Assembly (NCBI GenBank): GCA_017938925.1 | Contig: JAGBAO010000007.1 | Coordinates: 1 to 44,684, forward strand | Direction: 5' to 3' | DNA from: Bacteroidales bacterium | GTDB taxonomy: Bacteria > Bacteroidota > Bacteroidia > Bacteroidales > UBA932 | DNA length: 44,684 nt | In this document: in pieces, positions 3,186 through 22,294 of the stretch | How positions within the stretch are numbered: position 1 is the first letter of the stretch | Layout: every line of letters begins with the position of its first letter | Program-made: the position numbers and the translations under genes | The notes under the pieces: model-generated | What the model was told of the DNA's origin: nothing | What the model saw: the letters and a program-made list of their open reading frames with translations, nothing else | The model's database searches: none

Positions 3186-5612
3186 CTATATATTACGGTT
3201 CGTCGCAGTAATATTCTTAACTATCTTATTCTCATAATCCTGATATGTGCCAGTGAATGTCAAAGTCTTTGCATCCGCATCATATATGAATGTAAGAGTC
3301 GCACCATTTTTCCCTCCTGTAAGTGTAGTACCATCAAATGTAACGGACAATCCATAATTGGCTCCAGCAATCGATTCAATGACGTAGCTACCCGCAGAGC
3401 CAGAAATTATCATTACTCCTGTAGTTGGAACTGGTGCTGACATGCCGTAGATATCACCCAACTCACAGGTAACATCCCATGTACCTGCAATAAGTTCCTC
3501 TGACGGTTCCTCTGTTCCAGCCTGCTTCGTCGCATTAATATTCTTAACTATCTTATTCTCATAATCCTGATATGTGCCAGTGAATGTCAAAGTCTTTGCA
3601 TCCGCATCATATACGAATGTAAGAGTCGCACCATTTTTCTCTCCTGTAAGTTTAGTACCATCAAATGTAACGGACAATCCATAATTGACTCCAGCAATCG
3701 ATTCAATGACGTAGCTACCCGCAGAGCCAGAAATTATCATTACTCCTGTAGTTGGAACTGGTTCTGACATGCCGTAGACATCACCCAACTCACAGGTAAC
3801 ATCCCATGTACCTGCAATAGGATCATCTCCTCCAGCAGGAGCATCAACCTTGACTACAGCCTTGTAGTCCACAAGATATACATCTCTTTGAGTAGAATAA
3901 CTGCGAGTTTGGAGCGGTTCTGGAATAGAGAATTCCTTTTTGCTTGCGTCGTATGCTACTTCGAAATCCTTTGCAAAACCATAGCTCAGCACAGAACCGG
4001 CACGATGAACTGTGAGAATTCCTCCTTCAATATCTGCATAATACTCTCCGCCCTTATTTTGGACAGGCTGATTGTTAGCATCGAAATAACTATCCGCCAT
4101 GAACATATTGCTGATCTTGTAGGCTCCCTTTGAGAAGTCGTTGCTGAGAGCTATTGTGAAGACACCTTTCTTCGATACGGCATCAGTTCCTGACGAAGAA
4201 TTGGACACTCCGAACGATTCCGCCCACTCAATAACCTCACCCTCCTCATCATAGATCAGCGAAGGGTCATAGTTCTTCTGCTCCACTGTGAATTCAGCGA
4301 ATACGGTCTCCACTCCCTTCTTCTTGATGGTGAGAGTTGTCTTCCTATGAGCTCCGGAGTTGTTTGCAGCTGCCTTGAGGATAAGATTTTCGTATGAAAC
4401 AGCCTTTGTTCTCGGTTCGGATGTAACATCCAGCCAGTCTTTACCATTGTCACTGAGTATGATCTCATATTCAACGCCTGTTGTCAAAGGTATCGTGACC
4501 GTATTTTCCTCTACCGGTGAAAAATGAAGGACAGTCTCCACTTCCTGATCAATAGAGAAATCCTGTCCCTTGAGTTTCAGGGATTTCGCCTTGAGATCTC
4601 CGGTTTTGTTGTTGAGAGCATAGATGTCAGCATATCCTTCGCCGGATGGAAGTTCGAGTTCCACATATCCCTTCGTTGCTGACTCTGGATCTGGCACCAC
4701 CTTGACTCCTGTTGCATTGGTAGAAAGTACCCTTACGATAACCTCGTCACCTGCAGAAACTCCTGAAACCGTGTAGCTGAACTTCTTCACATCAGTTGTC
4801 ACGCCTTCTGCTGATGCTGCGTCGAACACGATGTCGAACGCACCCATCGGAATTTCATAGACGACTTTATCTTCGCCCTCTTTTTCCGGAAGAAGGGTGA
4901 TGATGAGCTTGGTGCCGTCCTCGCTGAGCTCTACACTTTCGAAGAACGCATCTCCGTCAAGACCTGCAGGTCCCTGAGCCGGGATGGCATTGCCCTCTGC
5001 GTCCACCAGTACGTCACCATTGACGTTCCAAACCCAGATATCGCCATGACTGGTTGACTTATACATCTTGATCACCGGCTCCTTTCCATCAATACCATTG
5101 GCCCTGACCTTGTTGCCTTCAGCATCAAGGAGCCACTCGCCGTTGACTGTCCAATAGTAATAGCCGTCTGTCTCATCAAGCGTGAGTGCCACCTGAGGTG
5201 TCTCTCCGTCCTCTGCACTTGCCTTGATCTTGTTGCCATCGGCATCAAGAAGCCACTCGCCGTTGAGAGTCCAATAGAGGACACCGTCCTCATCTTCCTT
5301 GGCTCCGACTACAGAAGAAGCTCCGTTCTTTATGACTGCCTTTGTGCCGTCTGAGAACACGAGTTCATATCCGTCAGGGAGCTGGTTGAGCTGAGACACG
5401 GAAAGTTTGGCATCGACTGCCGCCTTGAGTGCCGCAAGATCGCTTTTCAGCTGTGTCAGGTCTGTCTTGATCTGGTCCACTTCATTCTGAACAGCCTCAA
5501 GTTTCTCGTTGAGAGCTGAATCATCGTAACATGAAGTGAGCATAGGTGCAGCCATTGCCACAAGGACAAGAGCCGCTCCACAGAATCTCTTGAAGAAATT
5601 AAGTGTTTTCAT
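3186..5612 (-). CDS. DUF4988/BACON domain surface lipoprotein with duplicated C-terminal domain
   Basis: The product is 808 aa with a lipoprotein signal ending LTSC at about residue 28, then YDDSALN, an acidic stretch that suits surface export. Residues about 28-75 form a coiled coil of the DUF4988 (PL29 N-terminal) type. Three repeats of the form W-x-(L/V)-NGEWLLDAxGN follow to about residue 220. A BACON-like beta-sandwich lies near 365-450 (VTSEPRT to FTVEQKN). The C-terminus has two nearly identical domains of about 98 aa, each starting IAGTWDVTCELGD and ending TGTYQDYENKIVKNI, which look like lipocalin-like beta-barrels. No catalytic lyase domain is visible, so a binding role is more likely than an enzyme. 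It is the last gene of the nine-gene operon and lies 23 bp after the small lipoprotein gene. Ligand unknown. Confidence 0.8.
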   Translation of the reverse strand: MKTLNFFKRFCGAALVLVAMAAPMLTSCYDDSALNEKLEAVQNEVDQIKTDLTQLKSDLAALKAAVDAKLSVSQLNQLPDGYELVFSDGTKAVIKNGASSVVGAKEDEDGVLYWTLNGEWLLDADGNKIKASAEDGETPQVALTLDETDGYYYWTVNGEWLLDAEGNKVRANGIDGKEPVIKMYKSTSHGDIWVWNVNGDVLVDAEGNAIPAQGPAGLDGDAFFESVELSEDGTKLIITLLPEKEGEDKVVYEIPMGAFDIVFDAASAEGVTTDVKKFSYTVSGVSAGDEVIVRVLSTNATGVKVVPDPESATKGYVELELPSGEGYADIYALNNKTGDLKAKSLKLKGQDFSIDQEVETVLHFSPVEENTVTIPLTTGVEYEIILSDNGKDWLDVTSEPRTKAVSYENLILKAAANNSGAHRKTTLTIKKKGVETVFAEFTVEQKNYDPSLIYDEEGEVIEWAESFGVSNSSSGTDAVSKKGVFTIALSNDFSKGAYKISNMFMADSYFDANNQPVQNKGGEYYADIEGGILTVHRAGSVLSYGFAKDFEVAYDASKKEFSIPEPLQTRSYSTQRDVYLVDYKAVVKVDAPAGGDDPIAGTWDVTCELGDVYGMSEPVPTTGVMIISGSAGSYVIESIAGVNYGLSVTFDGTKLTGEKNGATLTFVYDADAKTLTFTGTYQDYENKIVKNINATKQAGTEEPSEELIAGTWDVTCELGDIYGMSAPVPTTGVMIISGSAGSYVIESIAGANYGLSVTFDGTTLTGGKNGATLTFIYDADAKTLTFTGTYQDYENKIVKNITATNRNI
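3201..3819 (-). repeat. 327-bp in-frame tandem duplication in the lipoprotein gene
   Basis: Blocks 3201-3492 and 3528-3819 align at an offset of 327 bp (109 codons) with few differences. Each encodes one C-terminal domain. The separating linker holds EEPSEEL-type residues. High nucleotide identity, including silent positions, points to a recent duplication or gene conversion. Confidence 0.9.
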
Positions 5613-5635
5613 GATAATCAGTATTAGTTGTTAAA

Positions 5636-6082
5636 TTATAGATGTCTTTCTACAGATTCTGATTTTGTCAGAGGGAGTGCCTTTGCCACGACCTCGGCAG
5701 GAACCGCCTCACGGGTGTATGTCACGCTGTAAGACTCCTGCTCCACTGCTGTCATGACAAGCGATCCGGAGCCGGCCTTGACCTTGTATGAATACTTCCA
5801 GGGATATCTGTCTGAATACACTCCCGAAAGGATGTCACTTTCTGCATCAAGCGTATATTCTCCGGTGCTGAACCAATATGGGCCTTCCCCTATCTTCTGA
5901 TACATCCCGAAGGTGCCGTCAGCAGCGAAGGAAATCCAGATATCTTCCTTGACTCCGCTTTCCTCGGCTGAATAGTGCCAGTCTCCGACGATGTCGTCCA
6001 TAAGACGGCCTGCCTCCTTCTGGCAGGATGCTGTCAGAATCAGTGCTGCAACTGCTGCAAATATATATACTATTTTTTTCAT
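5636..6082 (-). CDS. Small lipoprotein, lipocalin-like, unknown function
   Basis: The product is 148 aa from the ATG at 6082, where MKKIVYIFAAVAALILTASC gives a lipoprotein signal with cysteine 20. The frame is open further upstream, but those codons overlap the protease gene and lack a signal, so 6082 is preferred. The mature part opens VGDWHYSAEESG and alternates short strands (FAADGTFGMYQKI, GEYTLDAESDILSG). This pattern is seen in small lipocalin-like Bacteroidota lipoproteins that often sit beside Sus-like genes. It lies 13 bp after the protease stop and 23 bp before the next gene. A role as accessory, inhibitor or binding protein for the protease is only a guess. Confidence 0.72.
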   Translation of the reverse strand: MKKIVYIFAAVAALILTASCQKEAGRLMDDIVGDWHYSAEESGVKEDIWISFAADGTFGMYQKIGEGPYWFSTGEYTLDAESDILSGVYSDRYPWKYSYKVKAGSGSLVMTAVEQESYSVTYTREAVPAEVVAKALPLTKSESVERHL

Positions 6083-6095: not shown

Positions 6096-8123
6096 TTACA
6101 ACCATCCTCCGTTTTCTGAAACTCCAGCCGTGCGTGACAGGATCGAGATCTCACGGGTGAATTCCGTTCCACCCATGACGGCATTTCCCTGTCCGGCCAC
6201 CTCGCTTCCTCCGGCAATTGCAGAGATGCTGATCTTGGCTGAGCCTTCGTTTTCGCAACGGATGAAGAGTTTTCCATATTTCACGTATGGGTCTCCGACT
6301 ATGCCGAGGGCAGCACGTGCCTCGTCACTCACCTCCACCTTGGTGAAGGTCAGATGAGATGCCGCCGGGCTGAAGAACTGGTCAAGGGCGATCTTCACAT
6401 CGGTTCCCTTCTGGACAGGAAGGCATGGCGTGCCTTCTATCTGCATGAGCAGGCGCCACGTGTCGATGGCTCCTGTTCCCATGTTGTGCCAGAACGGAGT
6501 GAGGTCCATGAGCACACCGTTGTTGTATTTCGAGCATGTCTCGATGTAGTAGTCGATGTTGTTGACCGAGGTATAGAGCATGCCAAGGAACTCCTCGTAT
6601 GTGAAGGTCTTGCCAAGCTTCTTTGCATATGAGAGGGCAAGTGCCACTATTCCCGAAACATGAGGGCATGCCATCGAGGTTCCCTGCATGTAGCCGTATT
6701 CGCTCTTGCCGAGCTCCTTTGGCAGGGTGGAAAGGATCTGCGACCTTTCCGGGGTTGCCGATGTGGAGTTGATGGCATAGTCTCCTCCCGGAGCACAGAT
6801 GTTCACTCCCGGTCCGTAGTTGGTGTAGTTGGTCGGAAGGAAGTCCGGTCCGAAAGCAGCCACTGAGATATATCTGTTATGGGCTGCAGGATAGGCTGAC
6901 ACGTCCTGTCCTTCGTTTCCTGAGGCAAATATTGCAAAGTTGCAGCTTACCGGATTGGATGCAGCCCTCTTTGTCATGAAGTACTCAAGGGCATCCACCT
7001 CGGACCTGTACATGGTCTCGAAATCCTTGTCTGCCATGAGGTTTCCTGCATCCTGACCGAACGAGCACTGGAGAATCGATGCTCCCATGTCGGCTGCATA
7101 TCTGTATGCCTGGGCACGGTTGAGGGTTCCGCCGCTGGCATTTCCAGAGAAGAGCTGGCAGGTCATCATGCGGATTCCGGTACCTGGAGTGCCGTCTCCG
7201 CCGGCTACTCCGCAGACACCTATACCGTTGTTGTTGACTGCCGCCACTGTACCGGCAACGTGGGTTCCGTGACCGTTATCGCCCGGTCTGTCCCAGGTCA
7301 CAGGCATGACTTCGCCCTCCTTGGTGTCCTTGTTGTAGGTGCTGAGGAAGTTGTAGCCATGAATGTCGTCGATGTATCCGTTGCCGTCGTCGTCCACTCC
7401 TTCCTCTCCGTTCTTTTCCTTCTCATTCACCCACATGTTAGGCGCCAGGTCGGGATGATCATATTTCACACCCTCATCACAGATTGCGACGATGATTTCA
7501 GGATCACCTGTGGTCAGCTTCCATGCGTCACGGACATTGATGTCGGCTCCGACCCTGACCGTGCTCGCGACACTGAGGTCACCGTAGTTGATATAGTGCC
7601 ACTGATCAATGAGCTTAGGGTCATTGAAAGGAAGAGAAGGGGAGACGGAGTTGTCTCCGGCAACCCACGCCGTAGCTTCACTCTCATCCAGTCTGGCAAG
7701 CCTGGTGTTGTATTCGACCACCGAGATTTCCGGGAGTTCGGCAAATATTTCCGCTACCTCACGCACGTCGGTGTCTGCCGGGAAAGTCAGCAGGTACCAC
7801 CTGTCCATGCGATATTTTCTTTCATGGTCTGTTCCGTTGAACGGGAATGCTCTCTGGAGGGTCGCTCCTGTCTGATCGCAGGCCGAGACAAGGGAGGCCA
7901 CCTCCTGACCGTTTTCCAGAGCTGACGATGCGTCTTCGCTGAGGAGCACCACCAGAGTTCCCTCCACAGCATCTTCGGACGTGTTCACCGCCTTGCGCTG
8001 AATAGCCGGCACGCTCTCATCCTGAGCCTGAGGTGCATCAAGCCTCTCTTCCTGCAGACAAGCGGTCATCTGCAGGAGGAAAAGTGCTGAAAATATAATT
8101 GCTATCTTTCTGTTCATATACAA
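6096..8123 (-). CDS. Surface-lipoprotein subtilisin-family (S8) serine protease
   Basis: The product is 675 aa (or 673 from the internal ATG at 8117). The signal ends QMTAC, with cysteine 22 followed by LQEER. Residues about 50-145 resemble an I9-type propeptide. The S8 catalytic set is complete: Asp216 in AICDEGVKYDHPDL, His285 in NGHGTHVAGT, Asn403 in ASGNEG and Ser483 in GTSMACPHVSG. An acidic DDDGNGYIDD loop (244-253) is a probable calcium site. The C-terminal region after about 560 is beta-rich. It likely cuts proteins at the cell surface. It is the only recognisable enzyme in the SusC/SusD operon, which argues for peptide rather than glycan uptake. A maturation protease for partner lipoproteins is an alternative. 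Confidence 0.92.
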   Translation of the reverse strand: MYMNRKIAIIFSALFLLQMTACLQEERLDAPQAQDESVPAIQRKAVNTSEDAVEGTLVVLLSEDASSALENGQEVASLVSACDQTGATLQRAFPFNGTDHERKYRMDRWYLLTFPADTDVREVAEIFAELPEISVVEYNTRLARLDESEATAWVAGDNSVSPSLPFNDPKLIDQWHYINYGDLSVASTVRVGADINVRDAWKLTTGDPEIIVAICDEGVKYDHPDLAPNMWVNEKEKNGEEGVDDDGNGYIDDIHGYNFLSTYNKDTKEGEVMPVTWDRPGDNGHGTHVAGTVAAVNNNGIGVCGVAGGDGTPGTGIRMMTCQLFSGNASGGTLNRAQAYRYAADMGASILQCSFGQDAGNLMADKDFETMYRSEVDALEYFMTKRAASNPVSCNFAIFASGNEGQDVSAYPAAHNRYISVAAFGPDFLPTNYTNYGPGVNICAPGGDYAINSTSATPERSQILSTLPKELGKSEYGYMQGTSMACPHVSGIVALALSYAKKLGKTFTYEEFLGMLYTSVNNIDYYIETCSKYNNGVLMDLTPFWHNMGTGAIDTWRLLMQIEGTPCLPVQKGTDVKIALDQFFSPAASHLTFTKVEVSDEARAALGIVGDPYVKYGKLFIRCENEGSAKISISAIAGGSEVAGQGNAVMGGTEFTREISILSRTAGVSENGGWL

Positions 8124-8137: not shown

Positions 8138-10504
8138 TTAGAAGATTATTGCCTTGTCGAGGTTGAAGAAGTTCTGCACCGTCTCCTGCGCCTGAGCCTG
8201 GCCGGCGCCGAACATAGGGACATTATAGTACAGCATCTTGAGCCCTGTCTCCTTCATGTCTTCCTCGTCGTCTTCCTTCTCTTCCACAGGAGGATAGATC
8301 GGGTTCGGATCCTGATCCTTAGGGATGAGGACCATGCTTTCCACAAGGTCGAGGAGTCCGAGTGATACAGAACGGTTGGAATCCTCGAATCCAAGAACGG
8401 CAAAACCACTGAATCTGATTCCCTGATTGGCACCAAGACCGCTGTCGAGAATCGCGATGCATGGTTTCGATCCGTTTTTGCCCTTCTTCTCTACGACAGC
8501 AGCATAGAGACCTCCCGGACCTGTGTAGGCTGAACCGTTGCTTGCAAAGAGCATGGCGTCCGTATAGACATACATTCCTTCAAAGATGAAATAGTCCATA
8601 CGCATCTGATAGTTCAGGATATTGCCTCCGCTGAAGTAGAAGTCCATGGAATCATCTTCCACGCCATAGGTCTTACGCAGATGCGGGAAGAGTCCGCTCA
8701 CCTTCACGCAGGATGCGCCGTTATACTTGGTGTCACTCTCTTCGATGACGACCTCTCCAAGACAATATCTTGCGCTGGTTCCCTCCATCGCGTAGTAGTT
8801 GTATGTTCCGCACCAGTCCTTGGTGCTCTTGTAGTTTATCATGGCATCCGCATCGATGTCATTGTTCGAATACGATGCAAGCCTGTAGTCCCAGACACCT
8901 CCGGTGGACGCGGTCACAACTCGTTTCACTTCAGAGTATCCGTTATATGCAATGACTGCAAGGACATACTCCGTTCCCGGCACAAGTCCGCTCTGAACCA
9001 GCGAGAGTCCGGAGCCGTTCACCAGTGCAAGGTTCTGCTCGTTGAGTTCCGTCTCACTGATGGACTCCCAGTAGGTGTCTTCGTCAGAATCAAAGGTTTC
9101 CTTTTCAAAAAGTCCCACATGGAGTCTCTTGATGTCCTTTCCGTTGATATAGAGTTCAAGGGAGTTCTCGCCTGTCATTCCGTCCGGTGCGTATTTGTCA
9201 GAACTGATGAGTCCCATATTGAGTTCCACTTCCTTCTCGCTTGCGTCCTTCTTGTAGCCGAACGTTGTGAAAGAGTAGTTGACAAGGGCACCGTTGCTGT
9301 CCAGACCGACAACGACAATGGTATATTCTCCTGTCTTGTCGAATGACAGTCTGAGGGTGGTGTTACCTGTGACATCCTCCTGATTTGCCGCTGTCTTTCC
9401 TGCTGCGATGTCCTCTGCAAGGACAGCCACTTCAGATGCGGCAAGCGCACCTTCCGCCGTATAGACTTTTGCACGGCTCACATCAAGACCCATCTTGATG
9501 TCCACCGGTATGTATCCGTCCGCTTCAGTGATTCCCGGAGTTATTTCAATGGTTTCGTCAATGGCCCTGTACCCCGGAAGTATGATCCTATGCAGGCCGT
9601 AAGAGTTGGAAGGATACCATCCGAGGATGGCAAAATGAAGCTGGAGAGCATTGGCCGGGAAGGAGATGACTCCGTCCTCGAGAGTTCCATAGATCGAAGC
9701 AATGGAAGGGTCGAAGTCTTCATTTTCGGCAACATACGATCCGATTGACATCTCTCCGTATTCCGCACTCATCACGATACCCGTCTTGAAGGTCGGTATC
9801 CAGACCTTCTCCGGATCGGTGGCATCGATATAGGTGTAGTGCTGCTCAAGACAGATGCTGTTGGCATTCATGTTGAACATGTTGGTCATATATGTCGCGT
9901 CATAGACGTCATATATCCTGTAGTATCCCGGAAGGTCGGCTCTTTCCTCTATGGTGACAGCCTTCTCAAGGTTCGGATTAGGCATCGAGAACCACTCCGG
10001 GAAGACTCCGTCACGCCACAGACCGGTGGTCTCGCCGTTGTCTCCCAACAGTTTGTTCCATTTCACGCAGGTGACATTGAAACTCAGGTGTGTCGCATTC
10101 TTCGAGTAGTTCGACACGTATTCGTCTCCCTCCACCTTGATGGTGCAGTCATACCTGACTCCCAGCCTGATAGTAGGGAAAAACACCTCAAGTTCGGCTG
10201 TCGGCGAGTCCTCCTCGAATCTGAGTTCTGAAACGGAAAAGACTCCCGGGTGCTCCGATTCGATGGTTACAGGAACAGTCACCGCTCCTCTTGTGTTGAG
10301 TCTTCGCACACTGAAGACCAGACTCTTCTTGTCGTCCGGTCCGATCTGCAGGTCCCCTGTTCCCTTTTGAGAAGGGAAATAGACTCCATAGCAGTCGGCA
10401 TTGTCAGCTGCACCAAGTTCCGCCTCCATCTCCTGAGCGCAGGAGACAGCCATAAGCGAAACGAACAAAGCCGAGATGTATAATATGATGTTCTTGATCT
10501 TCAT
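8138..10504 (-). CDS. SusE-position surface lipoprotein with Ig/FN3-like domains, unknown ligand
   Basis: The product is 788 aa. The signal ends LMAVSC (cysteine 22), then AQEMEAE, a typical acidic surface-export stretch. An N-terminal domain (about 35-145) with GVYFPSQKGTG and VPVTIESEHPG looks like the Calx-beta or DUF4843-type sandwich common in lipoproteins that follow SusD. FN3-like segments with PGTEYVLAVIAYNG are found around 455-530. The C-terminal 200 residues are Tyr/Gly-rich and may form another sandwich. The start overlaps the SusD stop by one base (TAATG), so translation is probably coupled. By position it should be a substrate-binding or SusCD-accessory protein. I see no catalytic motif. 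Confidence 0.78.
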   Translation of the reverse strand: MKIKNIILYISALFVSLMAVSCAQEMEAELGAADNADCYGVYFPSQKGTGDLQIGPDDKKSLVFSVRRLNTRGAVTVPVTIESEHPGVFSVSELRFEEDSPTAELEVFFPTIRLGVRYDCTIKVEGDEYVSNYSKNATHLSFNVTCVKWNKLLGDNGETTGLWRDGVFPEWFSMPNPNLEKAVTIEERADLPGYYRIYDVYDATYMTNMFNMNANSICLEQHYTYIDATDPEKVWIPTFKTGIVMSAEYGEMSIGSYVAENEDFDPSIASIYGTLEDGVISFPANALQLHFAILGWYPSNSYGLHRIILPGYRAIDETIEITPGITEADGYIPVDIKMGLDVSRAKVYTAEGALAASEVAVLAEDIAAGKTAANQEDVTGNTTLRLSFDKTGEYTIVVVGLDSNGALVNYSFTTFGYKKDASEKEVELNMGLISSDKYAPDGMTGENSLELYINGKDIKRLHVGLFEKETFDSDEDTYWESISETELNEQNLALVNGSGLSLVQSGLVPGTEYVLAVIAYNGYSEVKRVVTASTGGVWDYRLASYSNNDIDADAMINYKSTKDWCGTYNYYAMEGTSARYCLGEVVIEESDTKYNGASCVKVSGLFPHLRKTYGVEDDSMDFYFSGGNILNYQMRMDYFIFEGMYVYTDAMLFASNGSAYTGPGGLYAAVVEKKGKNGSKPCIAILDSGLGANQGIRFSGFAVLGFEDSNRSVSLGLLDLVESMVLIPKDQDPNPIYPPVEEKEDDEEDMKETGLKMLYYNVPMFGAGQAQAQETVQNFFNLDKAIIF

Positions 10505-12201
10505 TACTTTTCCTCCTCGTCTGCTGTTTTGATTTTACCTGAAGGGTCAGGATTGTTGTTGCTGTCGTTGATTGCAGTGTTTGACTGGAATTCAGCACGT
10601 GTGATCACTATGTTCCACTGCGGAGAGCGACCGTCCGTGTTGAGCATGAACACCGTCGGGTGGTTGCTTCCCGGATAGTCACGGGTGATGCCGAAGTCCA
10701 TACGCTTGTAGTCATAAAGGAGAATGCCCTCACCCCAGAACTCCACTCTCTTCTGAAGGAGAAGCTCTGTCTGGAAGTCTCTCAGAGACACAGGATTACG
10801 TTTATACGAACGGTCGCGATATGTGGTCATGAAGTTCTTGAGAAGCTTCTTTCCTTCTTCCACACCCTTGAGCTGGGCCTCCGCCTCCATTTCAATGAAG
10901 TACATCTCTTCGATTCGCATGAGACAGTAGTCCGCCGCATTACCGATGTTGAAATCCGAGCACTCACCCATTGCCGGGCGGAACTTGAGTGCCTGATATG
11001 ACTTTGCAGCCGGCATTCCTGTGAGGAATTTCTGCTTGTCCTCTTCCGATCCCGCAAACTTGTATGCATAGTACTCTTCCTTCTTCGGGTCAAGCCATGA
11101 GTGCTTTCTGAAGTCGCTGTCTGGGATCTGATCGTAGAGTCTCGCACTTACTCCGAACTGTGCATAGCGCGCATAGCCCCATGATGCCTCGGACGAGACG
11201 TGTGACACGAAAGTCAGCAGGTTGCTGAGGTTCTCGGCCACAAGAGAGAAGCCCCAGATCCATGCATCGTTGGACGCAGCGTTGTTGAATCCGTTCACAG
11301 GGTCCTCCCACTGAGCCTGTGTCAGAGGGGTGAACCCGCCCTCATCGATCACCTGGCGTGCATATTTTGCCGCATTTGTGAACATTTCGTCACGTGGGAA
11401 GGCAGGATCCTCGGAATATCCGAGTTCAAGATATGCTCTCGCCTTCATTCCGTATACGGCGTAAATGGTAGGACGGGAGAATGTCATGTCCGCATCATTG
11501 ATGAGTTCCAGAGCCTTGTCGAGATCGGCAAGGATGAAATTATACATGGTCTCCCTTGTCACGCGAGGGTTGTTCTTGGTCTGGTCGAGGGTAGTGTTCT
11601 CGTCCACGATAGGGACAGTAAGGTTGCGAATCGACTCAGGTACGTCCGTGTATTTGTTAACCTTCGGCTCGAAAAGTCTGGCCATGTCAAGATAGCACAT
11701 AGCCCTGTATGCATAAGCCTGGCCCAGAATGTCCCTGAGCTTGACCGCCTCTTCATCTTCTCCTTCTCCGCTTGCCTCGACAACCGGCTTGATGGAAAGA
11801 ATCACGTCGTTGATGAGACGGATCCATGAGTAGTATGCATCCCAGAAGTATGCACAATATGTGTACTGGAAACCCTGGGCCTCGTTCATGTCATAGGCAT
11901 AGAAACGGTTGTAGAACGGGTTCTCTGCCATTGTCACCATATCTTCGAGCATGTGCTCGAGACGGAGGTGGATTCCCGGAATACCGAAGTCGGTGTGGTC
12001 ACCGTAGTTGTTTGCATATCCGATTGTGCCGGACCTTGTCATGCTGGCAGGGACGGCCTTGATCATGGACATCATCGCAGTCTTTGACTCAGAGACCTGT
12101 GCCTGAGTCTGGGAACCGCCGACAGGCAGAACCTCCTTGATGCAGGAAGCGGATGCGAGAGCGGCAAGCGAAATGAATATATATTTGATGTATCTCTTCA
12201 T
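10504..12201 (-). CDS. SusD/RagB-family nutrient-binding outer membrane lipoprotein
   Basis: The product is 565 aa with signal MKRYIKYIFISLAALASASC and the lipid-anchored cysteine at 20, then IKEVLPVGG. TPR-type helical segments characteristic of SusD are visible: LRDILGQAYAYRAMCYLDMARLF, TIYAVYGMKARAYLELGYS and ADYCLMRIEEMYFIEMEAEAQL. The C-terminal region carries FQTELLLQKRVEFWGEG and the nearby Asp-Tyr-Lys-Arg segment, as in most SusD proteins. The family caps a SusC barrel and captures ligand at the cell surface. It lies 12 bp after the SusC stop. Length is ordinary for the family. The ligand cannot be read from the sequence; the protease partner suggests peptides. Confidence 0.95.
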   Translation of the reverse strand: MKRYIKYIFISLAALASASCIKEVLPVGGSQTQAQVSESKTAMMSMIKAVPASMTRSGTIGYANNYGDHTDFGIPGIHLRLEHMLEDMVTMAENPFYNRFYAYDMNEAQGFQYTYCAYFWDAYYSWIRLINDVILSIKPVVEASGEGEDEEAVKLRDILGQAYAYRAMCYLDMARLFEPKVNKYTDVPESIRNLTVPIVDENTTLDQTKNNPRVTRETMYNFILADLDKALELINDADMTFSRPTIYAVYGMKARAYLELGYSEDPAFPRDEMFTNAAKYARQVIDEGGFTPLTQAQWEDPVNGFNNAASNDAWIWGFSLVAENLSNLLTFVSHVSSEASWGYARYAQFGVSARLYDQIPDSDFRKHSWLDPKKEEYYAYKFAGSEEDKQKFLTGMPAAKSYQALKFRPAMGECSDFNIGNAADYCLMRIEEMYFIEMEAEAQLKGVEEGKKLLKNFMTTYRDRSYKRNPVSLRDFQTELLLQKRVEFWGEGILLYDYKRMDFGITRDYPGSNHPTVFMLNTDGRSPQWNIVITRAEFQSNTAINDSNNNPDPSGKIKTADEEEK

Positions 12202-15200: not shown

Positions 15201-15453
15201 CAGGCACCTTTACATCCTTATATCCTATGGATGAGAATATGAGCACTCCGTCAGAAGGCACAGAGATGGAATAGAGACCGTCGATGTCGGTCATTCCTCC
15301 GGTCATGGTACCTTCAATCTGAATCGAAGCAAACGGCACAGGCTCACCGGTCGAAGAATCCTTGACGATTCCCGTAACCGTGAGGTTCTGTGCATAAGAG
15401 ACTGAGACTGCCATCATAAGGAGGCTCAGTATTGTCATTGCTAGCTTTTTCAT
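12214..15453 (-). CDS. SusC/RagA-family TonB-linked outer membrane transporter
   Basis: The product is 1079 aa. A signal peptide ends near SYAQ (21/22). Residues about 23-105 form a carboxypeptidase-regulatory-like domain (VTGIVKDSSTGEPVPFASIQIEG). The plug domain follows, with the family signatures SIQIRGTSSISAGTAPLYVVDG and LKDAASNALYGARGANGVIMI. The rest is a beta-barrel ending VRTVSFGLNLTF, with a C-terminal aromatic as expected for barrel insertion. SusC proteins import large ligands delivered by SusD using TonB-ExbBD energy. The gene is preceded by a 631-aa lipoprotein gene (22 bp away), whereas SusC is more usually first in such operons. Confidence 0.96.
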   Translation of the reverse strand: MKKLAMTILSLLMMAVSVSYAQNLTVTGIVKDSSTGEPVPFASIQIEGTMTGGMTDIDGLYSISVPSDGVLIFSSIGYKDVKVPVAGNAKHDVMLDPDTQMLEETIVVAFGTATKESFTGSATVVKSEDIAKVQSSNVTRALEGMVAGVQMTTSSGSLGSSPSIQIRGTSSISAGTAPLYVVDGVPYNGDMNNLNTADIESMTVLKDAASNALYGARGANGVIMITTKKAKKGEATVNVDAKWGLNTKALESYEYIKDPKLYYEAHYNALYNYYRMEQGMSDTDANLKAAANVAGPSESGGLGYLSFTLPDGQNIIGSNGKFNPNATPGRKVFYQGQYYWIQPDDWLAESYRNTLRQEYNVSASGSPGNAQIFASFGYLNNKGLIQGEDMQRYTARVRVDYPIKDWLKIGMNAAYSNFEWNNGNGSGTGDVFSFATNVAPIYPVYLRDGNRNIMYDELGYKRYDYGNGSNAGFVRPYAANSNALQELWLNVGNSEGNAINGTAYAEVKFLKDFTFTFNAGVGVDETRGTSIQNMYYGQFATNGGIITKSHGRSFYVNLQQLLNWSRTFGGVHNVSALLGHETYNTSSYSVSASKSNMFSMDNTELNGAVIDGQTANSGKSMYNNEGFFLRAQYDYNTRIFASASYRLDASSRFHPDHRWGSFWSLGGGWLIDKEPWFPRTPWLGMLKLKASIGSQGNDNIGDYLYTDMFSITNSDGEIAIQRSTIGNKEITWETNTNFNAGVDFELFRGRLTGSAEYFYRLTSDMLYYVTIPISYGFAGYYDNIGDMRNSGVEFAFNGNIMSRQNFTWDAYINFTHYTNKILMLPDTHKNREIDGYEGYASGNKFVGEGLPLNTFLMPKYAGVDKTDGLPMWYADEVQKDENGETVLDADGNPVLTGKVITTKEYSEAKDYLCDDPTPDLYGGFGTSFSFYGFDISASFTYSIGGLTYDGGYAGYMAPPGGTVGKNFHEDVLKAWTPENKDSDIPRFVYNDQNINASSDRFLVPASYLNFQNAQIGYNFPSHMLAKARISRLRLYLTCDNIVYWSYRKGLDPRQSLSGSTSSENYSPVRTVSFGLNLTF

Positions 15454-15475: not shown

Positions 15476-17371
15476 TTACAGCTGTATTTCTACGTTACAA
15501 TTGCTGATGCTTCCTGTAATCGTGTTAGGGCTGCCAGGATTGTCATCGATGAACTCCCAGGAGAAGTCATAAGTCTTCTCTGCGGTACGCTTCACCTTCA
15601 CCCAGCCATTGATTGCAGGGGCATGTCCGTCAATCATAAAGTGTTCTCCCTCCTTGTTGTGCATGTACCAGTTGCCACGGAATCCGTCTTCTGACCATGT
15701 GAATCCACGACGGGCGTTACATCTGTCATATCCTGTAAGGTTCATGCCTTCAGCCCAGCCAGGGTACTGCTCAGCATATTTAGGGTCAAATATCTCGTCT
15801 GCAGGGCGTCCCATTCGGCTGACATAGATTTCGTAGTTCTCTTCCTCAACCGAAAGATTAGGCTGCATGGTGTAGGTGTACTCCTTATTCAGTTCAGGAG
15901 CGATCTCTCCGTTGGATCCAAGAGGCAGGACGAACTCAAGAATCATGTAGTCTCCGTCCGCGCACCATGCTTCAAGACGGTCTCTCTTGCCGTTCTTGTC
16001 CTTGTCCCACATCCAGTCGTCCTGAGTTCCTATGATGCCGTCAGCTCCCGCTTCATTCTCAGGGTCAACCCATGGGATGTCCTTCTCTGCTGCTGTCCAG
16101 TCACGCGGCTGAAGATAAAGCTGCCATGCTTCAGCGATGTCGTAATTCCAGATTTCCTCTATGTTGTCCCTATGCAGCGTCTCGATCTTGCGAAGCGTTC
16201 CACCTTTCACCTTGGACATGTCGCAGTGCACGTCTTCCGACAGAGTCGAGAGGGTGCTTTCCTTCGATCCCGGAGCAAGATTGGTCACAAGCAGTTCACC
16301 CTTCCAGACTCCTGACACCTTTCTCCTTGAGGTGCTGAGGTCATATGTCAGGGTGCATGCCCTCGGCCTGGTTTCCGATCCCTTGGACACCACTTCCTCG
16401 TCATACTTCACAGTCACATAGCCCGAGTTGATGAATTCCGGAGAGACTTCGCCACCGCTCTCCTTTGTGTTCTGGAAGAAATATGTTCCGAACGGAGTTC
16501 CGTCCATAAGGATTCCCGGGAGAAGCGTTCCCTGCTTGAAAAGCGATGCCGCATTCATTGTGGACACGTTGTAGGTTCCCTCTGTCAGGACTGGCTCCGC
16601 ATTTCCGGAATAGAACTTGGTGAAGAAGTTCATTATCAGACAGACACCTGGAACATCAAGGACATTGTCACCATCCACAAAGCCCTTGGTGGACATCTGG
16701 ACGATGAAGTTTCCTGTCTTGTTTCCGAAAAGGTCTCCGTTATACATGCACTCCATATCGAAGAAAGGCATGTTGATGATGTCGTCGTTCATCGTGATCA
16801 GTGATGGAGCCATCTCCAGATAGTCTCCAATCACGAAATCGTCCACACAGACATACTCGACCGTATCGACCTGGCCGTCTTTTGCGATTATGAGGTCTTC
16901 GGTCGTGATCATTGTCTGTCCGCTCTCGACCTTTTCCACCTTCAGGGCACCGGATTTCAGTTCCCAGTTGGACTGAGTGGTTCCGACCTGTCTTCTTACG
17001 TAGGAAGAAGCAGAAGATACGGAATTGACTGTGTCCTTATGCACGACAGGATACGTGCCGACAGGCAGTTCCATCTTTGCTCCGGACTCAAGAAGCGGGG
17101 TCCTCATGCGGAGAACCAGCATGTCGCCCTCTGAATCCAGATAAGGATTGTTCAGGTCGTCCTGATAGCAGCGTGCATCACTGATGACAAGATAGAACAT
17201 ACCCATGCCATCTTCATTGATGTCACCATAGTACATGCCGAACCCCATGTCCTGCATCACCACGGCGCCTTCCGGCAGCACCACCACCGGCTCCTCAAGA
17301 CCAAGATCCGGTCCCTGGCATGCTGCCGCCAGAGACAGGATAGTCATTGTAATTATCAGAAGTCTTTTCAT
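15476..17371 (-). CDS. Lipoprotein of unknown function upstream of SusC
   Basis: The product is 631 aa. Signal MKRLLIITMTILSLAAAC places the lipid-modified cysteine at 18, followed by QGPDLGLEEP. I do not recognise a domain with confidence. The N-terminal half has strand-rich segments such as GFGMYYGDINEDG and several Gly-Asp turns. Around residues 445-470 an acidic stretch (GTQDDWMWDKDKNGKRDRLEAW) resembles a calcium-binding DxDxNG loop. The C-terminus (NGWVKVKRTAEKTYDFSWEFID) is sandwich-like. It sits between the Ig-repeat lipoprotein and SusC with short gaps of 18 and 22 bp, so it is part of the same transcript. Likely a surface-exposed binding subunit by context only. Confidence 0.72.
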   Translation of the reverse strand: MKRLLIITMTILSLAAACQGPDLGLEEPVVVLPEGAVVMQDMGFGMYYGDINEDGMGMFYLVISDARCYQDDLNNPYLDSEGDMLVLRMRTPLLESGAKMELPVGTYPVVHKDTVNSVSSASSYVRRQVGTTQSNWELKSGALKVEKVESGQTMITTEDLIIAKDGQVDTVEYVCVDDFVIGDYLEMAPSLITMNDDIINMPFFDMECMYNGDLFGNKTGNFIVQMSTKGFVDGDNVLDVPGVCLIMNFFTKFYSGNAEPVLTEGTYNVSTMNAASLFKQGTLLPGILMDGTPFGTYFFQNTKESGGEVSPEFINSGYVTVKYDEEVVSKGSETRPRACTLTYDLSTSRRKVSGVWKGELLVTNLAPGSKESTLSTLSEDVHCDMSKVKGGTLRKIETLHRDNIEEIWNYDIAEAWQLYLQPRDWTAAEKDIPWVDPENEAGADGIIGTQDDWMWDKDKNGKRDRLEAWCADGDYMILEFVLPLGSNGEIAPELNKEYTYTMQPNLSVEEENYEIYVSRMGRPADEIFDPKYAEQYPGWAEGMNLTGYDRCNARRGFTWSEDGFRGNWYMHNKEGEHFMIDGHAPAINGWVKVKRTAEKTYDFSWEFIDDNPGSPNTITGSISNCNVEIQL

Positions 17372-17389: not shown

Positions 17390-20300
17390 TTAGAATGCAA
17401 ATATGTAACGGACAAGGTAATGAGACCTGGTCTTCGGCATATTGGCGTAGCCGCTGCCGCCATTCCAGAACTGGTAAGCACATCCCCAAGACCAGCTCGT
17501 TGAAGATTCTGTTGAAGACCAATAACGATAGGTGTCATTGCTGCCCCAATCCCCGGTCACGCCAAAACCCGGTTCTGTCGCATTTATGGCAACACCGCCC
17601 GCGTCTACAATCTTGCCATTGATGGTCTCGTAGGCCGCCGCCATCTGACGAAGTTCCTCATACGAAGGCAGATACCAGCCTGACGTTGCATCAGGCAGTT
17701 TGTCCTCCGGCATATACTCCACAGCCAGAACCTTTTTATCCGGATTCGCTTCATTATATGCCTTCAGAGCCTGAGTGTTGCTGTAGCCACAGGCACGCTC
17801 CTGATTGGTCAGGTAGTAGTATTGCTTGTTATCTGATGCCCATGCAGCCACATCTGCCCCAGCTGCCTGCCAAGCGGTCGGCACCTCCTGAAGAGAGACC
17901 ACAAGACCGTTCTTGCAGTCAGTCGGGAGAGCTGGATCCTGAAGAGTGATATTCATGGTCGAGAATACGACTCCAACAGTCCTGGACTTGTCGTAGACTT
18001 TGGAAATGGTGCCGTCCGAATTATAGAAATCGCCGACTGCCGCACGCCTGACTGGATCAGTGACAACCACTTCATACTCCACAGACTCTCCCCCCTGCAG
18101 GACTCCGCTGATTACGGCGCTGCCCTGTCCGACTGCCTCGATCTTTCCATTGTGACCGACTTTGACCACTCTCTCATCGCTCGAAGACCAGCTGATGGAA
18201 GTGTATGAAGCATTTGTCGGAATAATCTCCGTCTCAAGGAACTTCACGTCTCCCACCCAAAGTGCAAGCTTGCTTTCGCCGACGATGGTAAAACTCTCTA
18301 CCGGGATCGGGAGGACCTCTATGTCGAATATGAGACGGACATTGGAATTATCATCTGCATATGCCGTACAATGCACGATTCCCGGAGTATTAGCTGTGAA
18401 CTTGTTCTCTGCAAGGAAGCCCACTCCGGTGGCGGATGTATGGATGTTGACCACCTGGCTCGCCTTCTCCGGAATCACCTTGGTCTTAAAGACGAAGGTC
18501 TCACCATGCAGCATCTTATATTTCTCCCCATTTACTTCCGGCACGGAAAGAAGGACGATCTCCCGAGGCATAGCCTTGACTACCGTAATCTTCACACTTG
18601 CCCTCCTGCCGTCTGCATCGTGGGTGATAGTCACTGCCTGACCATTATCCATTCCTGATTCCTTGATAACTTCCACCACTGCGGTCACATTACCATGTTC
18701 ATCCACCGTAGCAATCTCAGGATGTGAAGACGACCATGACACCTTGGCCGGAATATAAGTGCCGGAAGCATTGTGTTCGTACTCAGGAACCAGTCTGACC
18801 GTCATATCCTGCTGCAGACCAGACAATTCCACTGACGGGTCGCTGTAGCCAAATGACATGCCGCTCAGGAATCCGCTGCCGACGACCTCCACCGCACATT
18901 CTGCGGCAAATTCGCCTATAGATGCCGTCACTTTCGCATTTCCTTCTCCAACGGCAGTCACAGTTCCGTCTGAAACGGTCACCACATCGGTGTTTGAAGA
19001 CGTCCAGGACACATTTCCGCTGAATCCATCTTCAGGAACCCTCGACAGGACAAGTTTCCTGACTGCACCCTTGGCCATCACGGCCTCGTTCAGATCAAGG
19101 TACAGAGCCTTGTCCACAACCTTCACATGACACTTGGACATGACACCGTTCGCTGCAATCGCATACACATCAGCCTCACCGATAGCATTGCCTGTGACAA
19201 GTCCGTCCTCCGCCACAGAGACGACTGCTTCATTGGATGACTTGAACCTGATAGTCTTGTCGTCCGCATTGACCGGCAGAACAGAAGCCTCCATAGCTAT
19301 GGAGTAGCCCTTGGCCAGCAGCATCTCGGTGTGAGACAGGTTGACCTTCTCGACCTTTATCTCTGCGGCCTTGACATACACATGGCACATCGCCGTCACG
19401 TGCGGCCTGCGCTTATCCCTTACGGTGACCTGTGTCGTACCCACATACTTAGGCGTCACCACTCCCCTGTCAGAAACCTCAACGATGGCGACCTGCTGTC
19501 CGAATGAGTCTTCGGCTGTTGCAGCCATCCACTCAAGTCCTGTGTAGTTCTCGACCACATTACCTGAAGCATCCTTGCATCTTGCAGTGAGCTGGAAGAC
19601 ATCCTCATTCATCTTCAGCTCCAGAGAAGACGGTATCATGTCGATGGAGACTATGTCTGCATCTTCAACAGCCTCGATCACCTTGATATCGCACTGGGCC
19701 TTCTTTCCCGACACCATATCCTTTACTGTCAACTCCGTCTGTCCCGCCTTCAAAGGAGTCACGCTTCCGTCTTCAAGTGCAGCTACACTTTTGTCCGACA
19801 GGCTCCACTCCAGAAGGTACGGATCATATCCGCCTGGCTCACAGATAAGCTCAGGCGTCCACGGCTCATCTCCAAGACAAAGTGTCATTGCCTTGGACTT
19901 GAAGACAAGTGTGGCAGCTCCTTCAACAGGTTTATCCAGTACGTTGATATCTCCCTTGTTGAAAGTCTCCGAGTTGGCATCACGGACTTCCACCGACAGT
20001 TTTCCGCCTTCCACATAGTTGGAGAACGAAACCTTGTATTCACCCGGAGTCACCTCCTCTGTCTTGAAATCAAGCCCGTCTGTCGCCGTGAAGTTCCACA
20101 CCAGGTTGGCCAGATCGTATTCCGCCGGCTCAACCTTCACGGACATAGGAGCCCAGACGCCATTCACGCCACCTGTAAGTCTTGCTGGCATGTCCAGCAA
20201 TATCCTGTCAGCCAGAACAACCTCCCGCACCACAGCCATGACAGCAGTGTCGGCCACGGCAGTCTCCTTCTTTCCGGAAACGATGACAGTCACTTTTGCG

Positions 20301-20812
20301 TCTTTCACAAACTCCTTGACCTTGACATTATATTCCCCGGGCCTGAGCTCCGCATATTCAAACTGCAAGTTTTCCGGAACAGCCGAAAATTTCCAGTCGA
20401 GACCGCTCGGGCTGTACCCTTTCGGTTCCACGGCAGCCTTGACCACAGCACCGACCTCTCCGACCAGGACACTACCCGGAGCCGTCAAGGTGACCTTTTC
20501 CAGCTTGACGTCAGAGACCACCACGGTACAAGAGGCCGAGACGCCATCCGCCGTGGCTGTAATGACAGCCTCTCCTTCAGCAAGGGCCACAACCCTACCG
20601 TCAGCTTTCACATCAACGATGGAATCCACATCCACCGACAGAAGAGGCCTCTTGTCGTAATTGACCACAACGAGTTCTCCGGCCAGATTCAAGGTGTCCC
20701 CGACCGTCATCTGATATGTGTCGCTGTTGAAGGAAACAGAAACCGGCTGTTCCTTCACACATGCCGCTAATGCCAGCAGCATGGTGGACATATATATAAG
20801 CAACTTTTTCAT
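17390..20812 (-). CDS. Large Ig-like (BIG2) repeat lipoprotein with C-terminal Lcl/DUF1566 C-type-lectin-fold domain
   Basis: The product is 1140 aa. Signal MKKLLIYMSTMLLALAAC gives cysteine 18, then VKEQPVS. About eight to ten Ig-like modules follow. Several have the clear BIG2 pattern, such as VSWTSSNTDVVTVSDGTVTAVGEGNAKVTA and ISWSSSDERVVKVGHNGKIEAVGQG. From about residue 970 the sequence becomes an Lcl/DUF1566 (FISUMP-like) domain with ATSGWYLPSYEELRQM, YWSSTESS and a C-terminal HYLVRYIFAF. This domain has the C-type-lectin-like fold used by many displayed binding proteins. The Ig stalk likely projects the tip from the cell surface. The last 50 residues look like the variable region of diversity-generating retroelement targets. 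No reverse transcriptase is in the window. Confidence 0.85.
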   Translation of the reverse strand: MKKLLIYMSTMLLALAACVKEQPVSVSFNSDTYQMTVGDTLNLAGELVVVNYDKRPLLSVDVDSIVDVKADGRVVALAEGEAVITATADGVSASCTVVVSDVKLEKVTLTAPGSVLVGEVGAVVKAAVEPKGYSPSGLDWKFSAVPENLQFEYAELRPGEYNVKVKEFVKDAKVTVIVSGKKETAVADTAVMAVVREVVLADRILLDMPARLTGGVNGVWAPMSVKVEPAEYDLANLVWNFTATDGLDFKTEEVTPGEYKVSFSNYVEGGKLSVEVRDANSETFNKGDINVLDKPVEGAATLVFKSKAMTLCLGDEPWTPELICEPGGYDPYLLEWSLSDKSVAALEDGSVTPLKAGQTELTVKDMVSGKKAQCDIKVIEAVEDADIVSIDMIPSSLELKMNEDVFQLTARCKDASGNVVENYTGLEWMAATAEDSFGQQVAIVEVSDRGVVTPKYVGTTQVTVRDKRRPHVTAMCHVYVKAAEIKVEKVNLSHTEMLLAKGYSIAMEASVLPVNADDKTIRFKSSNEAVVSVAEDGLVTGNAIGEADVYAIAANGVMSKCHVKVVDKALYLDLNEAVMAKGAVRKLVLSRVPEDGFSGNVSWTSSNTDVVTVSDGTVTAVGEGNAKVTASIGEFAAECAVEVVGSGFLSGMSFGYSDPSVELSGLQQDMTVRLVPEYEHNASGTYIPAKVSWSSSHPEIATVDEHGNVTAVVEVIKESGMDNGQAVTITHDADGRRASVKITVVKAMPREIVLLSVPEVNGEKYKMLHGETFVFKTKVIPEKASQVVNIHTSATGVGFLAENKFTANTPGIVHCTAYADDNSNVRLIFDIEVLPIPVESFTIVGESKLALWVGDVKFLETEIIPTNASYTSISWSSSDERVVKVGHNGKIEAVGQGSAVISGVLQGGESVEYEVVVTDPVRRAAVGDFYNSDGTISKVYDKSRTVGVVFSTMNITLQDPALPTDCKNGLVVSLQEVPTAWQAAGADVAAWASDNKQYYYLTNQERACGYSNTQALKAYNEANPDKKVLAVEYMPEDKLPDATSGWYLPSYEELRQMAAAYETINGKIVDAGGVAINATEPGFGVTGDWGSNDTYRYWSSTESSTSWSWGCAYQFWNGGSGYANMPKTRSHYLVRYIFAF

Positions 20813-20818
20813 CGCCTG

Positions 20819-22210
20819 TTACTTTGTGAGTTTCAAGGTATTGATCCTCGGCACCATAGAGTCCATGGTCACTGGAATAAGGCCGTTATAGATTCCGACC
20901 ATCATGTACGAGTAGTTGAAATACAGGAACTCCTGTTCTCCCGGGATTCCGAATGCCTGGAGCGAGATCCTCAACGGAGTCGCCTTTGCCGAGCCGTCTG
21001 CGTTCATGGTGAACCTTGCCACCTTGAGGAACGGAATATCCACAGGCACATCCATCATGGTTCCGTTGTAATCCACCTTTATACAGCCATAGACAAAGAA
21101 GTCGTAGAGGTCTGCGAGAGCCGGATTGTCCAGATCGTCAAGCTGCTGGGACATCACATACATATCTCCCGTAGACTTCTCGAAATACAGCAGTATCGGG
21201 AGATCCTCCGGAATGTTCCTGAATCCTTCTCCTACAGTAGTGGACTCCCAGCCGTACATCTGATAGTACAGGTTGTTTTCCTCCGGAACAATCTTCACTT
21301 CATATGTGATTTCCTTTCCTTCACATTTGCCGGTGAGTTTCCAGTCGTTTCCGATCCACTTGTTGTAGGCTTCGGTAGCAGGCTCCTGCTCAAGCTTCAG
21401 AAGAGTCTCCGCATAATAGCCTGTGAGGGTTCCCGTTGAATCGATTCCAATCATGAACAGCAGGTAGTCGCCTTTGACAAGACGCTCTTCCAGATGGGTG
21501 CAGTCGCCTTTCTTCACTTCTTTAGCCCATTTCATGTGCGCTGCATTGCACTCAGCCACATAGCTTTCGAAGCAGGTGCGGTAGCTTCCCTTGTACTGCG
21601 ACCTGAAATAGTCTGCAGGGAGAAGATATGGTACGTAGGTGTCCAGGGTGTCGCCTGCGGTACATAATATCACTTCCTTCTCATCATCGGGATTGTCCTC
21701 GGCCACGATTCTTTCCTTGTATTCCACCTTCCACGAAGGATGAGGTTCGAACACATCCGGATTCCTCATTGTCTTGAATGTAAGCTCCGCAACCTTGCCT
21801 GAGATGTCACCGGCAGGAGTGACGATTGCCGCTATCACCCTGTAGACCCTGTTTGCTTCAAGTCCCTTGATGGTGACGCTCCTGTTGACTCCGACATTTC
21901 CCTGAATCTTTCCTTCCTTGGCCAGAAGGGAGGCTATCCTGGTTTCAAGTTCCAGCTGAGCATCGGTATCAAGCTCAGACGTGCACATGTAATACCAGAG
22001 ATCTTCCTGACCGCCGTCATGGTTGACCCTCACATATGCCATCTCCTGAAACGCCTCGTCCAGCCGGAGAGTCATTGTGACATTGTCGTCCTTCATTCCT
22101 TCAGGATCAATGTTTTCCACGCATCCGGACCCGAGTACCACGCCCAATAATACGACAACAGCGCCAGCAGTATGCCGGAGCACCCTGTTGAAATCGGTTA
22201 ATTTATTCAT
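20819..22210 (-). CDS. First lipoprotein of the Sus-like operon, unknown function
   Basis: The product is 463 aa from the ATG at 22210. An upstream ATG at 22285 is rejected because it lies before the predicted transcription start near 22257 and hides the signal peptide. The signal VVVLLGVVLGSGC has cysteine 30, followed by VENIDPEG. A segment near residues 105-150 (ITIKGLEANRVYRVIAAIVTPAG-like) resembles an FN3 domain. The C-terminal half (WIGNDWKLTGKCEGKEITYEVKI to FLYFNYSYMMVGIYNG) looks like a lipocalin-like beta-barrel. It is followed after 6 bp by the Ig-repeat lipoprotein. Function unknown; a surface accessory role is inferred from its operon. Confidence 0.78.
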   Translation of the reverse strand: MNKLTDFNRVLRHTAGAVVVLLGVVLGSGCVENIDPEGMKDDNVTMTLRLDEAFQEMAYVRVNHDGGQEDLWYYMCTSELDTDAQLELETRIASLLAKEGKIQGNVGVNRSVTIKGLEANRVYRVIAAIVTPAGDISGKVAELTFKTMRNPDVFEPHPSWKVEYKERIVAEDNPDDEKEVILCTAGDTLDTYVPYLLPADYFRSQYKGSYRTCFESYVAECNAAHMKWAKEVKKGDCTHLEERLVKGDYLLFMIGIDSTGTLTGYYAETLLKLEQEPATEAYNKWIGNDWKLTGKCEGKEITYEVKIVPEENNLYYQMYGWESTTVGEGFRNIPEDLPILLYFEKSTGDMYVMSQQLDDLDNPALADLYDFFVYGCIKVDYNGTMMDVPVDIPFLKVARFTMNADGSAKATPLRISLQAFGIPGEQEFLYFNYSYMMVGIYNGLIPVTMDSMVPRINTLKLTK

Positions 22211-22263
22211 TGTCAAATAGTAGTTATTATTTAAAATCCAATTTGTTGTACTAAACCAATCTG

Positions 22264-22294
22264 CGAATATACAACCCGTCGGCAAAATTTACAA
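22264..22294 (-). promoter_or_regulatory. Predicted promoter of the nine-gene Sus-like operon
   Basis: On the minus strand a TTG (22292-22294) and a -7 box TATATTCG (22264-22271) are separated by 20 nt. This matches the Bacteroidota TTTG-n19-21-TAnnTTTG layout with one mismatch in the -7 box. Transcription would begin near 22257, about 47 nt before the ATG at 22210. Confidence 0.55.

Follow-up and report, generated by a model that had tools for sequence, protein, structure and literature searches.

Does an operon that places a subtilisin-like protease beside a SusC/SusD transporter serve to feed on protein, and is it conserved as a single unit? The question is raised by nine genes on the minus strand of a 44,684-nucleotide stretch of DNA (the window) from a Bacteroidales bacterium, which is contig C3 (JAGBAO010000007.1) of a 2.67-Mb assembly. 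The nine open reading frames (ORFs) run from position 22210 down to 3186 in the order g1, g2, g3, SusC (g4), SusD (g5), g6, S8 protease (g7), g8 and g9, and an initial annotation had read them as one nine-gene system for harvesting protein. The operon is real and coherent, and that nine-gene claim is too strong. The preferred reading of the gene content, to which a probability of about 0.62 is given, is that the operon would be a protein-foraging utilisome, with a surface S8 protease that cuts protein, SusC and SusD (SusCD) that take up the peptides and a g8 protein that acts on the protease.

The nine genes do not form one conserved system, since the full g1-g9 order occurs in only 2 of 300 genomes of the genus, that of the window and a second genome, G538 (53% identity to the window for g1, 43% for g2, 61-63% for g3, 83% for SusC and 38% for g9). 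Only the order SusC-SusD-g6-S8-g8 recurs. It is repeated in many genomes of the genus, the genome of the window has it once more (locus L030), and its recurrence is far above chance. The core was counted in 40 loci chosen down the ranked list of S8 matches, with loci already obtained left out, S8 genes accepted at an expectation value (E) < 1e-120, and SusC sought within 12 kb, SusD within 8 kb and g6 within 3 kb on the same strand. Among the 46 S8 genes in these loci, SusC and SusD lie upstream of 37, g6 upstream of 36 and g8 downstream of 44; counted per locus, SusC and SusD precede S8 in 36 of 40. Three loci (L164, L166 and L167) have S8-g8-S8-g8 tandems in gene runs that lack SusCD; in two of them (L164 and L166) a SusC lies on the opposite strand. 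In L169 the sequence stops 442 bp upstream of its S8. Directly before the tandem in L167 is a gene for an S41 peptidase with a PDZ domain (L167:8324-9931). A profile search of contigs with S8 returned at least 80 loci, and the closest S8 loci among the matches listed include those of Candidatus Cryptobacteroides faecipullorum, of Alistipes montrealensis and of metagenome-assembled genomes (MAGs) that bear the names Alistipes sp. or Bacteroidales bacterium, which suggests a Cryptobacteroides-like lineage.

The remaining genes are distributed differently from one locus to the next. Relatives of g1 are present in 72 of the 300 genus genomes and relatives of g3 in 9. In seven further g3-bearing genomes the g1 and g3 relatives are on separate contigs, and neither SusCD nor S8 was found in the DNA fetched around four g3 and three g1 places elsewhere in genomes with g3. 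Other extra genes stand upstream of SusC or after g8 in L148, L154, L161, L038, L159, L165 and L168. Because the extras vary and the relatives of g1 and g3 are scattered, the nine-gene unit is best described as a conserved five-gene core with exchangeable lipoproteins, of which g1, g2, g3 and g9 were recruited here. Eight of the 77 other places with a g1 relative among the matches listed are within 1 kb of an S8-g8 pair, which gives g1-type proteins some link to the protease. Of 61 genomes, 11 have the core gene g6, and every one of these belongs to the same genus. The N-terminal part of g6, with matches in 11 of 295 genomes overall, has weak relatives in further families of the order.

Two features absent from the initial annotation stand out in the core: the coupling of g8 to the protease gene and a conserved C-terminal tail on the protease. 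S8 (E <= 1e-120) and g8 (E <= 1e-4) were sought in the 300 genus genomes, and each was found in 110. Among the matches listed, g8 is the next gene downstream on the same strand for 137 of 150 S8 genes, at a gap of -4 to 335 bp (median 22), while 13 of 150 S8 genes have no following g8 and 13 of 150 g8 genes no preceding S8. Tandem S8 duplicates each keep a g8 of their own, as seen in four pairs and in L055. The g8 gene is therefore coupled to the S8 gene, and the pair also occurs without SusCD in the run.

The protease itself matches PF00082 (2.6e-39) and the PF16361 pro-domain in Pfam. As the initial annotation stated, its active site is complete: D214, H283, N401 and S481, which we take to be the catalytic residues, are invariant in an 11-row alignment and stand in place within the catalytic domain, as in S8 subtilases. 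The C-terminal tail was surveyed in 67 loci, of which 66 hold S8, giving 73 distinct S8 proteins at E < 1e-120. The last two residues are WL in 70 of the 73 and WF in 2, usually as part of NGGWL, although many of these proteins are mutually related and the counts are not independent events. The only exception is an 890-residue protein of another S8 type in L165. Among 175 other lipoproteins from the same loci, 19 have Leu as the last residue, and in none is it preceded by Phe, Trp, Tyr or His. A structure model of g7 (mean predicted local distance difference test score, pLDDT, 75.7) shows the pro-domain, the catalytic domain and a C-terminal beta region, with residues 665-673 below 50. Conserved residues on a predicted disordered end have the look of a docking motif, and the Trp-Leu tail is probably a docking or latching signal.

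The transporter pair belongs to the Sus/RagAB type, having a TonB-dependent barrel and an adjoining SusD-family lipoprotein. SusC matches TIGR04056 at 773.7 bits against a cut-off of 368.25 and also matches TIGR04057. SusD, encoded 12 bp further on, matches PF14322 (SusD-like_3) at 49.3 bits against a cut-off of 27 (9.1e-13), with a PF07980 match below the cut-off. No Pfam family was found for g6 apart from a weak fn3 signal. A midpoint-rooted tree was built from 74 SusC proteins of the loci obtained around S8 genes, in which the SusCs unlinked to S8 are a non-random set since sampling was centred on S8 genes. One clade of 50 (support 1.0) contains 42 of the 43 SusCs that adjoin an S8 with a WL or WF tail, L050 being the exception. 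The 10 SusCs next to other S8 types all fall outside this clade, and its remaining 8 members have no S8 link in the fetched DNA. The transporter lineage thus follows the type of protease.

Taken in this way, the core suggests a sequence of steps at the cell surface. The S8 protease would make endo-cuts in protein that g6 and the accessory lipoproteins would hold during cutting, and SusD and SusC would take in the resulting peptides by TonB-driven import. The g8 protein would restrain the protease or else position it, its most likely role being that of an inhibitor by which the envelope of the cell itself would be protected, and the Trp-Leu tail of S8 would serve for docking or latching.

The operon layout agrees for the most part with the initial annotation (Table 1). 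SusC, SusD and seven further lipoproteins including S8, three of them large and placed ahead of SusC (g1, g2 and g3), are all borne out by the TIGR and Pfam matches and by lipoprotein signals that were recognized by eye in every protein except SusC. The spacings from g1 to g9 are 6, 18, 22, 12, -1, 20, 13 and 23 bp, and the most likely start codons are ATG at 22210 for g1 and ATG at 8117 for S8. Of the earlier description of one promoter, short gaps and a single terminator, the gaps of -1 to 23 bp and a strong terminator hold and the promoter was not established. The terminator after g9 (3147-3117) has the longest stem among 17 terminator-like sites of the region, a number not above the 15.3 expected by chance. 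Sigma-70-like sites are not enriched in the region (21 against 18.5 expected from shuffled sequences), and the exact Bacteroidales-type promoter consensus is absent there. In G538, g1 likewise comes first, with about 400 bp between it and its next neighbour on the same strand, which supports an operon start at g1.

Table 1. Genes and terminator of the operon, with positions in the window
Feature	Position	Strand	Description
g1	20819..22210	-	463-aa lipoprotein; no Pfam family; accessory
g2	17390..20812	-	1140-aa lipoprotein; five Big_2 stretches and a weak Lcl_C end (Pfam); accessory
g3	15476..17371	-	631-aa lipoprotein; no Pfam family; accessory
g4	12214..15453	-	SusC/RagA-type TonB-dependent transporter; TIGR04056 773.7 bits; core
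g5	10504..12201	-	SusD-like lipoprotein lid; PF14322 9.1e-13; core
g6	8138..10504	-	788-aa lipoprotein; weak fn3 signal; presumed binding lipoprotein; core
g7	6096..8117	-	S8 subtilisin-like lipoprotein; pro-domain and C-terminal NGGWL tail; core
g8	5636..6082	-	148-aa lipocalin-like lipoprotein; protease partner, possibly inhibitor; core
g9	3186..5612	-	808-aa lipoprotein; DUF4988, BACON and a duplicated C-terminal region; accessory
Intrinsic terminator	3117..3147	-	stem of 13 pairs, 8 GC, then TTTTTT

The acidic residues reported after the lipobox cysteines are present in all eight lipoproteins, each of which has Asp or Glu within four residues of the cysteine (by eye). Such residues resemble surface-export signals, and not all of them match the motifs published in PMC6222051. 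From these residues the lipoproteins of the operon are predicted to be located at the surface. The last quarter of g9 consists of two almost identical tandem copies (89 of 98 residues the same), as if recently doubled. A small plus-strand ORF of about 65 codons (22368-22565), with a likely GTG start, diverges from the operon; it is also found beside the operon in G538, and matches to it, its own included, occur in 63 of 275 genus genomes. Its Pfam scan gave no match better than E 0.16. A 23-bp block upstream of g1 that is identical in the window and G538 was considered as an operator and rejected, as it falls inside this ORF. An Rfam search of the window gave nothing at the gathering score and three sub-threshold matches within 22190-22620. 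On the other side of the operon, 3' of its terminator, two A/T-rich inverted repeats containing CAGAAAAA...TTTTTTCTG were seen by eye at about 2810-2925 on the minus strand.

All nine operon proteins were scanned with Pfam only and with no CAZy-specific library, and no glycosidase, lyase or esterase was found, in keeping with the initial annotation. The scan was extended to 62 extra same-strand neighbours from 50 loci, with runs ended at gaps > 180 bp or at opposite-strand ORFs, a sampling that thus skipped some upstream lipoproteins (e.g. in L040, L137 and L149). Direct scans or a 22-member set (25 of 32 families listed) covered 54 of these neighbours, and the other 8 were covered only in a joint scan. 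In the joint scan of all 62, the glycoside hydrolase (GH) families GH2 and GH53 match two members each, among 25 of 84 families listed, and no further glycoside hydrolase is among the matches listed for the 62. The four genes trace to L164 and L166, where they precede the S8-g8-S8-g8 tandems, and these two loci are possibly glycoprotein-degrading clusters. Glycan enzymes as conserved neighbours elsewhere had been named at the outset as evidence against a protein-harvesting system, and they were seen only in these two loci, both without SusCD in the run. Several of the extra proteins carry Big_2 or BACON domains, and the N-terminal part of g9 has a partial match to a hyaluronan lyase family model (45.7 bits against a cut-off of 1100).

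The role of g8 was approached through its fold and its gene neighbourhood. The model of the window protein is an eight-stranded barrel (pLDDT 86.1). In a fold search it is matched best by lipocalin-like proteins of Bacteroides, and potempin E comes at rank 11 (E 6.8e-3), one of many matches to lipocalin-like structures. Six of eight g8 relatives match PF13648 (Lipocalin_4) at E up to 1 (best 1e-6), and the window protein does not. Sequence homology with potempin E was proposed from profile A5, in which it was the best PDB match (2.7e-4), and was rejected when the match was lost with the signal-peptide-free mature profile A8; the smaller profile A1 likewise did not find potempin E. Among the potempins themselves, a solved complex of potempin C with mirolase is on record. 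The C-terminus is L in 44 of 69 distinct g8 proteins and FL in 27. One relative (L054:9070-9753) has a long acidic, tether-like Gly-Thr-Glu-Gly-Asp repeat between the barrel and a final PFL.

Like a potempin gene, g8 is a small lipoprotein gene adjoining a protease gene, with the order reversed. In Tannerella forsythia, small lipoproteins are said in PMC7296668, on data then unpublished, to inhibit the neighbouring protease, and PMC4404884 describes protease-adjoining lipoproteins as specific inhibitors without significant sequence similarity to one another. For Bacteroides fragilis, PMC2873492 places staphostatin-like lipoproteins beside proteases and calls staphostatin lipocalin-like. The leading guess from these comparisons is that g8 may be a protease inhibitor. 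The KLIKK proteases and potempins of T. forsythia resemble the window pair in that a subtilisin-like protease lies beside a small lipoprotein (PMC7296668, PMC4404884). They differ in that KLIKK enzymes are type IX cargo ending in KLIKK, with the potempin gene first, while the window S8 is a lipoprotein ending in GGWL, with g8 second, and homology between the mature sequences of potempins and g8 was not found.

Other known systems share parts of the operon. The RagAB operon of Porphyromonas gingivalis is not known to contain a protease, whereas the window operon co-encodes a protease and its partner. Both have a SusCD-type transporter, which binds oligopeptides in RagAB (PMC7782687) and, as described in PMC11992087, in BT2261-64 of Bacteroides thetaiotaomicron. 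RagA is also the best-scoring solved relative of the window SusC (9.6e-99), barely above the SusC of the dextran utilisome, 8AA4 (2.6e-97). PMC11992087 also describes BT3013-15 as free of carbohydrate-active enzymes. It further describes the polysaccharide utilization locus BT4240-50 as containing SusC/D, a surface glycan-binding protein and an M60-like surface peptidase, with glycopeptide import proposed (PMC11992087). In this locus, as in the window, SusC and SusD share one operon with two surface lipoproteins, one for binding and one a peptidase; in the window, however, the peptidase is S8 and not M60-like, no glycosidase gene was found by Pfam, and g8 and the GGWL tail are added. The levan and dextran utilisomes of B. 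thetaiotaomicron likewise combine SusC, SusD, a surface enzyme lipoprotein and a surface lipoprotein for binding that has Ig-like domains at its N-terminus (PMC7618045), with a glycosidase in place of the protease.

Related arrangements are present elsewhere in the Bacteroidota, as seen in 48 annotated loci of the 80 S8 loci listed. SusC, a SusD match and S8 are on one strand in, for instance, Draconibacterium aestuarii (L063), Flammeovirga sp. SJP92 (L066), a Rikenellaceae MAG (L083) and loci L070, L093, L124 and L126. In Cesiribacter (L080), Porphyromonas levii (L084), L089 and L116, SusC is followed by S8 and the place of SusD is unmatched by the SusD query; a PorV-like protein follows the S8 of P. 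levii. The window's genome itself contains a second S8 type of 865 residues on contig C7 (L032), which is SusD-linked, carries a type IX secretion tail and has a Calx-beta lipoprotein as its neighbour. A third type, on contig C16 (L034), is accompanied by a weak g8 relative, by a DUF1573 protein and by DUF4458/leucine-rich-repeat proteins; it is also seen in L057, L060 and L086, and in all four loci the S8 ends in GWL. The combination had been called unrecognized at the outset, which stands insofar as no described SusCD-S8 system was recognized by title or abstract in a literature search that left most subscription papers outside its range. It does not stand for its parts, as SusCD with a surface peptidase is published and SusC-SusD-S8 clusters occur elsewhere in the phylum. 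These clusters and the published M60-like system make the idea of protein harvest plausible and not unprecedented.

The proposal of protein capture, cutting and peptide import draws support from S8, SusCD and the absence of glycan enzymes by Pfam, and is weakened by the GH genes of L164 and L166. Several observations weigh against protein foraging with a protease inhibitor. GH53 and GH2 genes adjoin S8-g8 pairs in those two loci. The potempin E match of g8 disappears without signal peptides and ranks only eleventh by fold, and potempin genes precede their protease while g8 follows S8. The g8 relatives of L034, L057 and L060 are weak and lack the FL ending, although the S8 there still ends in GWL. 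NGGWL is also the ending of the A. montrealensis S8 (L059), for which the preceding 10 kb hold no SusCD and the following 600 bp no g8, and the second S8 of L158 ends in NGGWL with neither g8 nor SusD nearby. The receptor of the tail may, on the evidence of L059, be more general than the operon, and the idea that the tail binds only g8 or only this SusCD is weakened by L059 and by the S8-g8 pairs without SusCD in the run. If instead the protease opens plant or mucin glycoproteins and SusCD imports glycopeptides or sugars, the nutrient would be glycan. BT4240-50 is described as working in this way with its M60-like peptidase (PMC11992087), and the GH genes beside two tandems, the partial hyaluronan lyase match of g9 and the Big_2 or BACON domains of the extras would fit. 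The window operon has no glycosidase, lyase or esterase by Pfam, and GH matches occur only where the run is without SusCD. This explanation is considered unlikely. S8 is not known as a glycopeptidase family, which also counts against it.

The function of g8 and the tails admits a further alternative, that g8 is a structural or docking subunit or a chaperone and that the FL tail of g8 and the WL tail of S8 bind a common envelope receptor. It is a tentative but serious possibility: aromatic-Leu ends are found in S8 (70 of 73 WL) and g8 (27 of 69 FL) against 0 of 175 other lipoproteins, the g8 of L054 bears its FL end beyond a long repeat linker, and, once signal peptides are taken off, g8 matches no known inhibitor in sequence. 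Yet only 44 of 69 g8 proteins end in L, lipid anchors already hold both S8 and g8 at the membrane, and the precedents found in T. forsythia and B. fragilis, as their sources present them, are inhibitor pairs. A more elaborate form of the protein-foraging reading, in which protease utilisomes throughout the genus have an S8 with a Trp-Leu latch and a lipocalin-like inhibitor whose Phe-Leu tail competes for the same site, is doubtful. Improbable is a non-nutritional role in which S8 matures or sheds the surface lipoproteins of its own operon; the S8-g8 pairs without SusCD in the run (L164, L166 and L167) indicate that the protease has SusCD-independent uses, but SusCD is tied to S8 in 36 of 40 loci and the transporter lineage follows the protease type.

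Protein foraging remains the preferred reading, and if it is true, SusCD machinery that has mostly been studied for sugars would here be turned to protein with a built-in guard on the protease. The most worthwhile parts of the operon, the S8-g8 pair and the GGWL tail, offer simple, testable leads in a genus whose named close matches are mostly metagenome assemblies. More broadly, SusCD operons that are classed as sugar loci may feed on protein.

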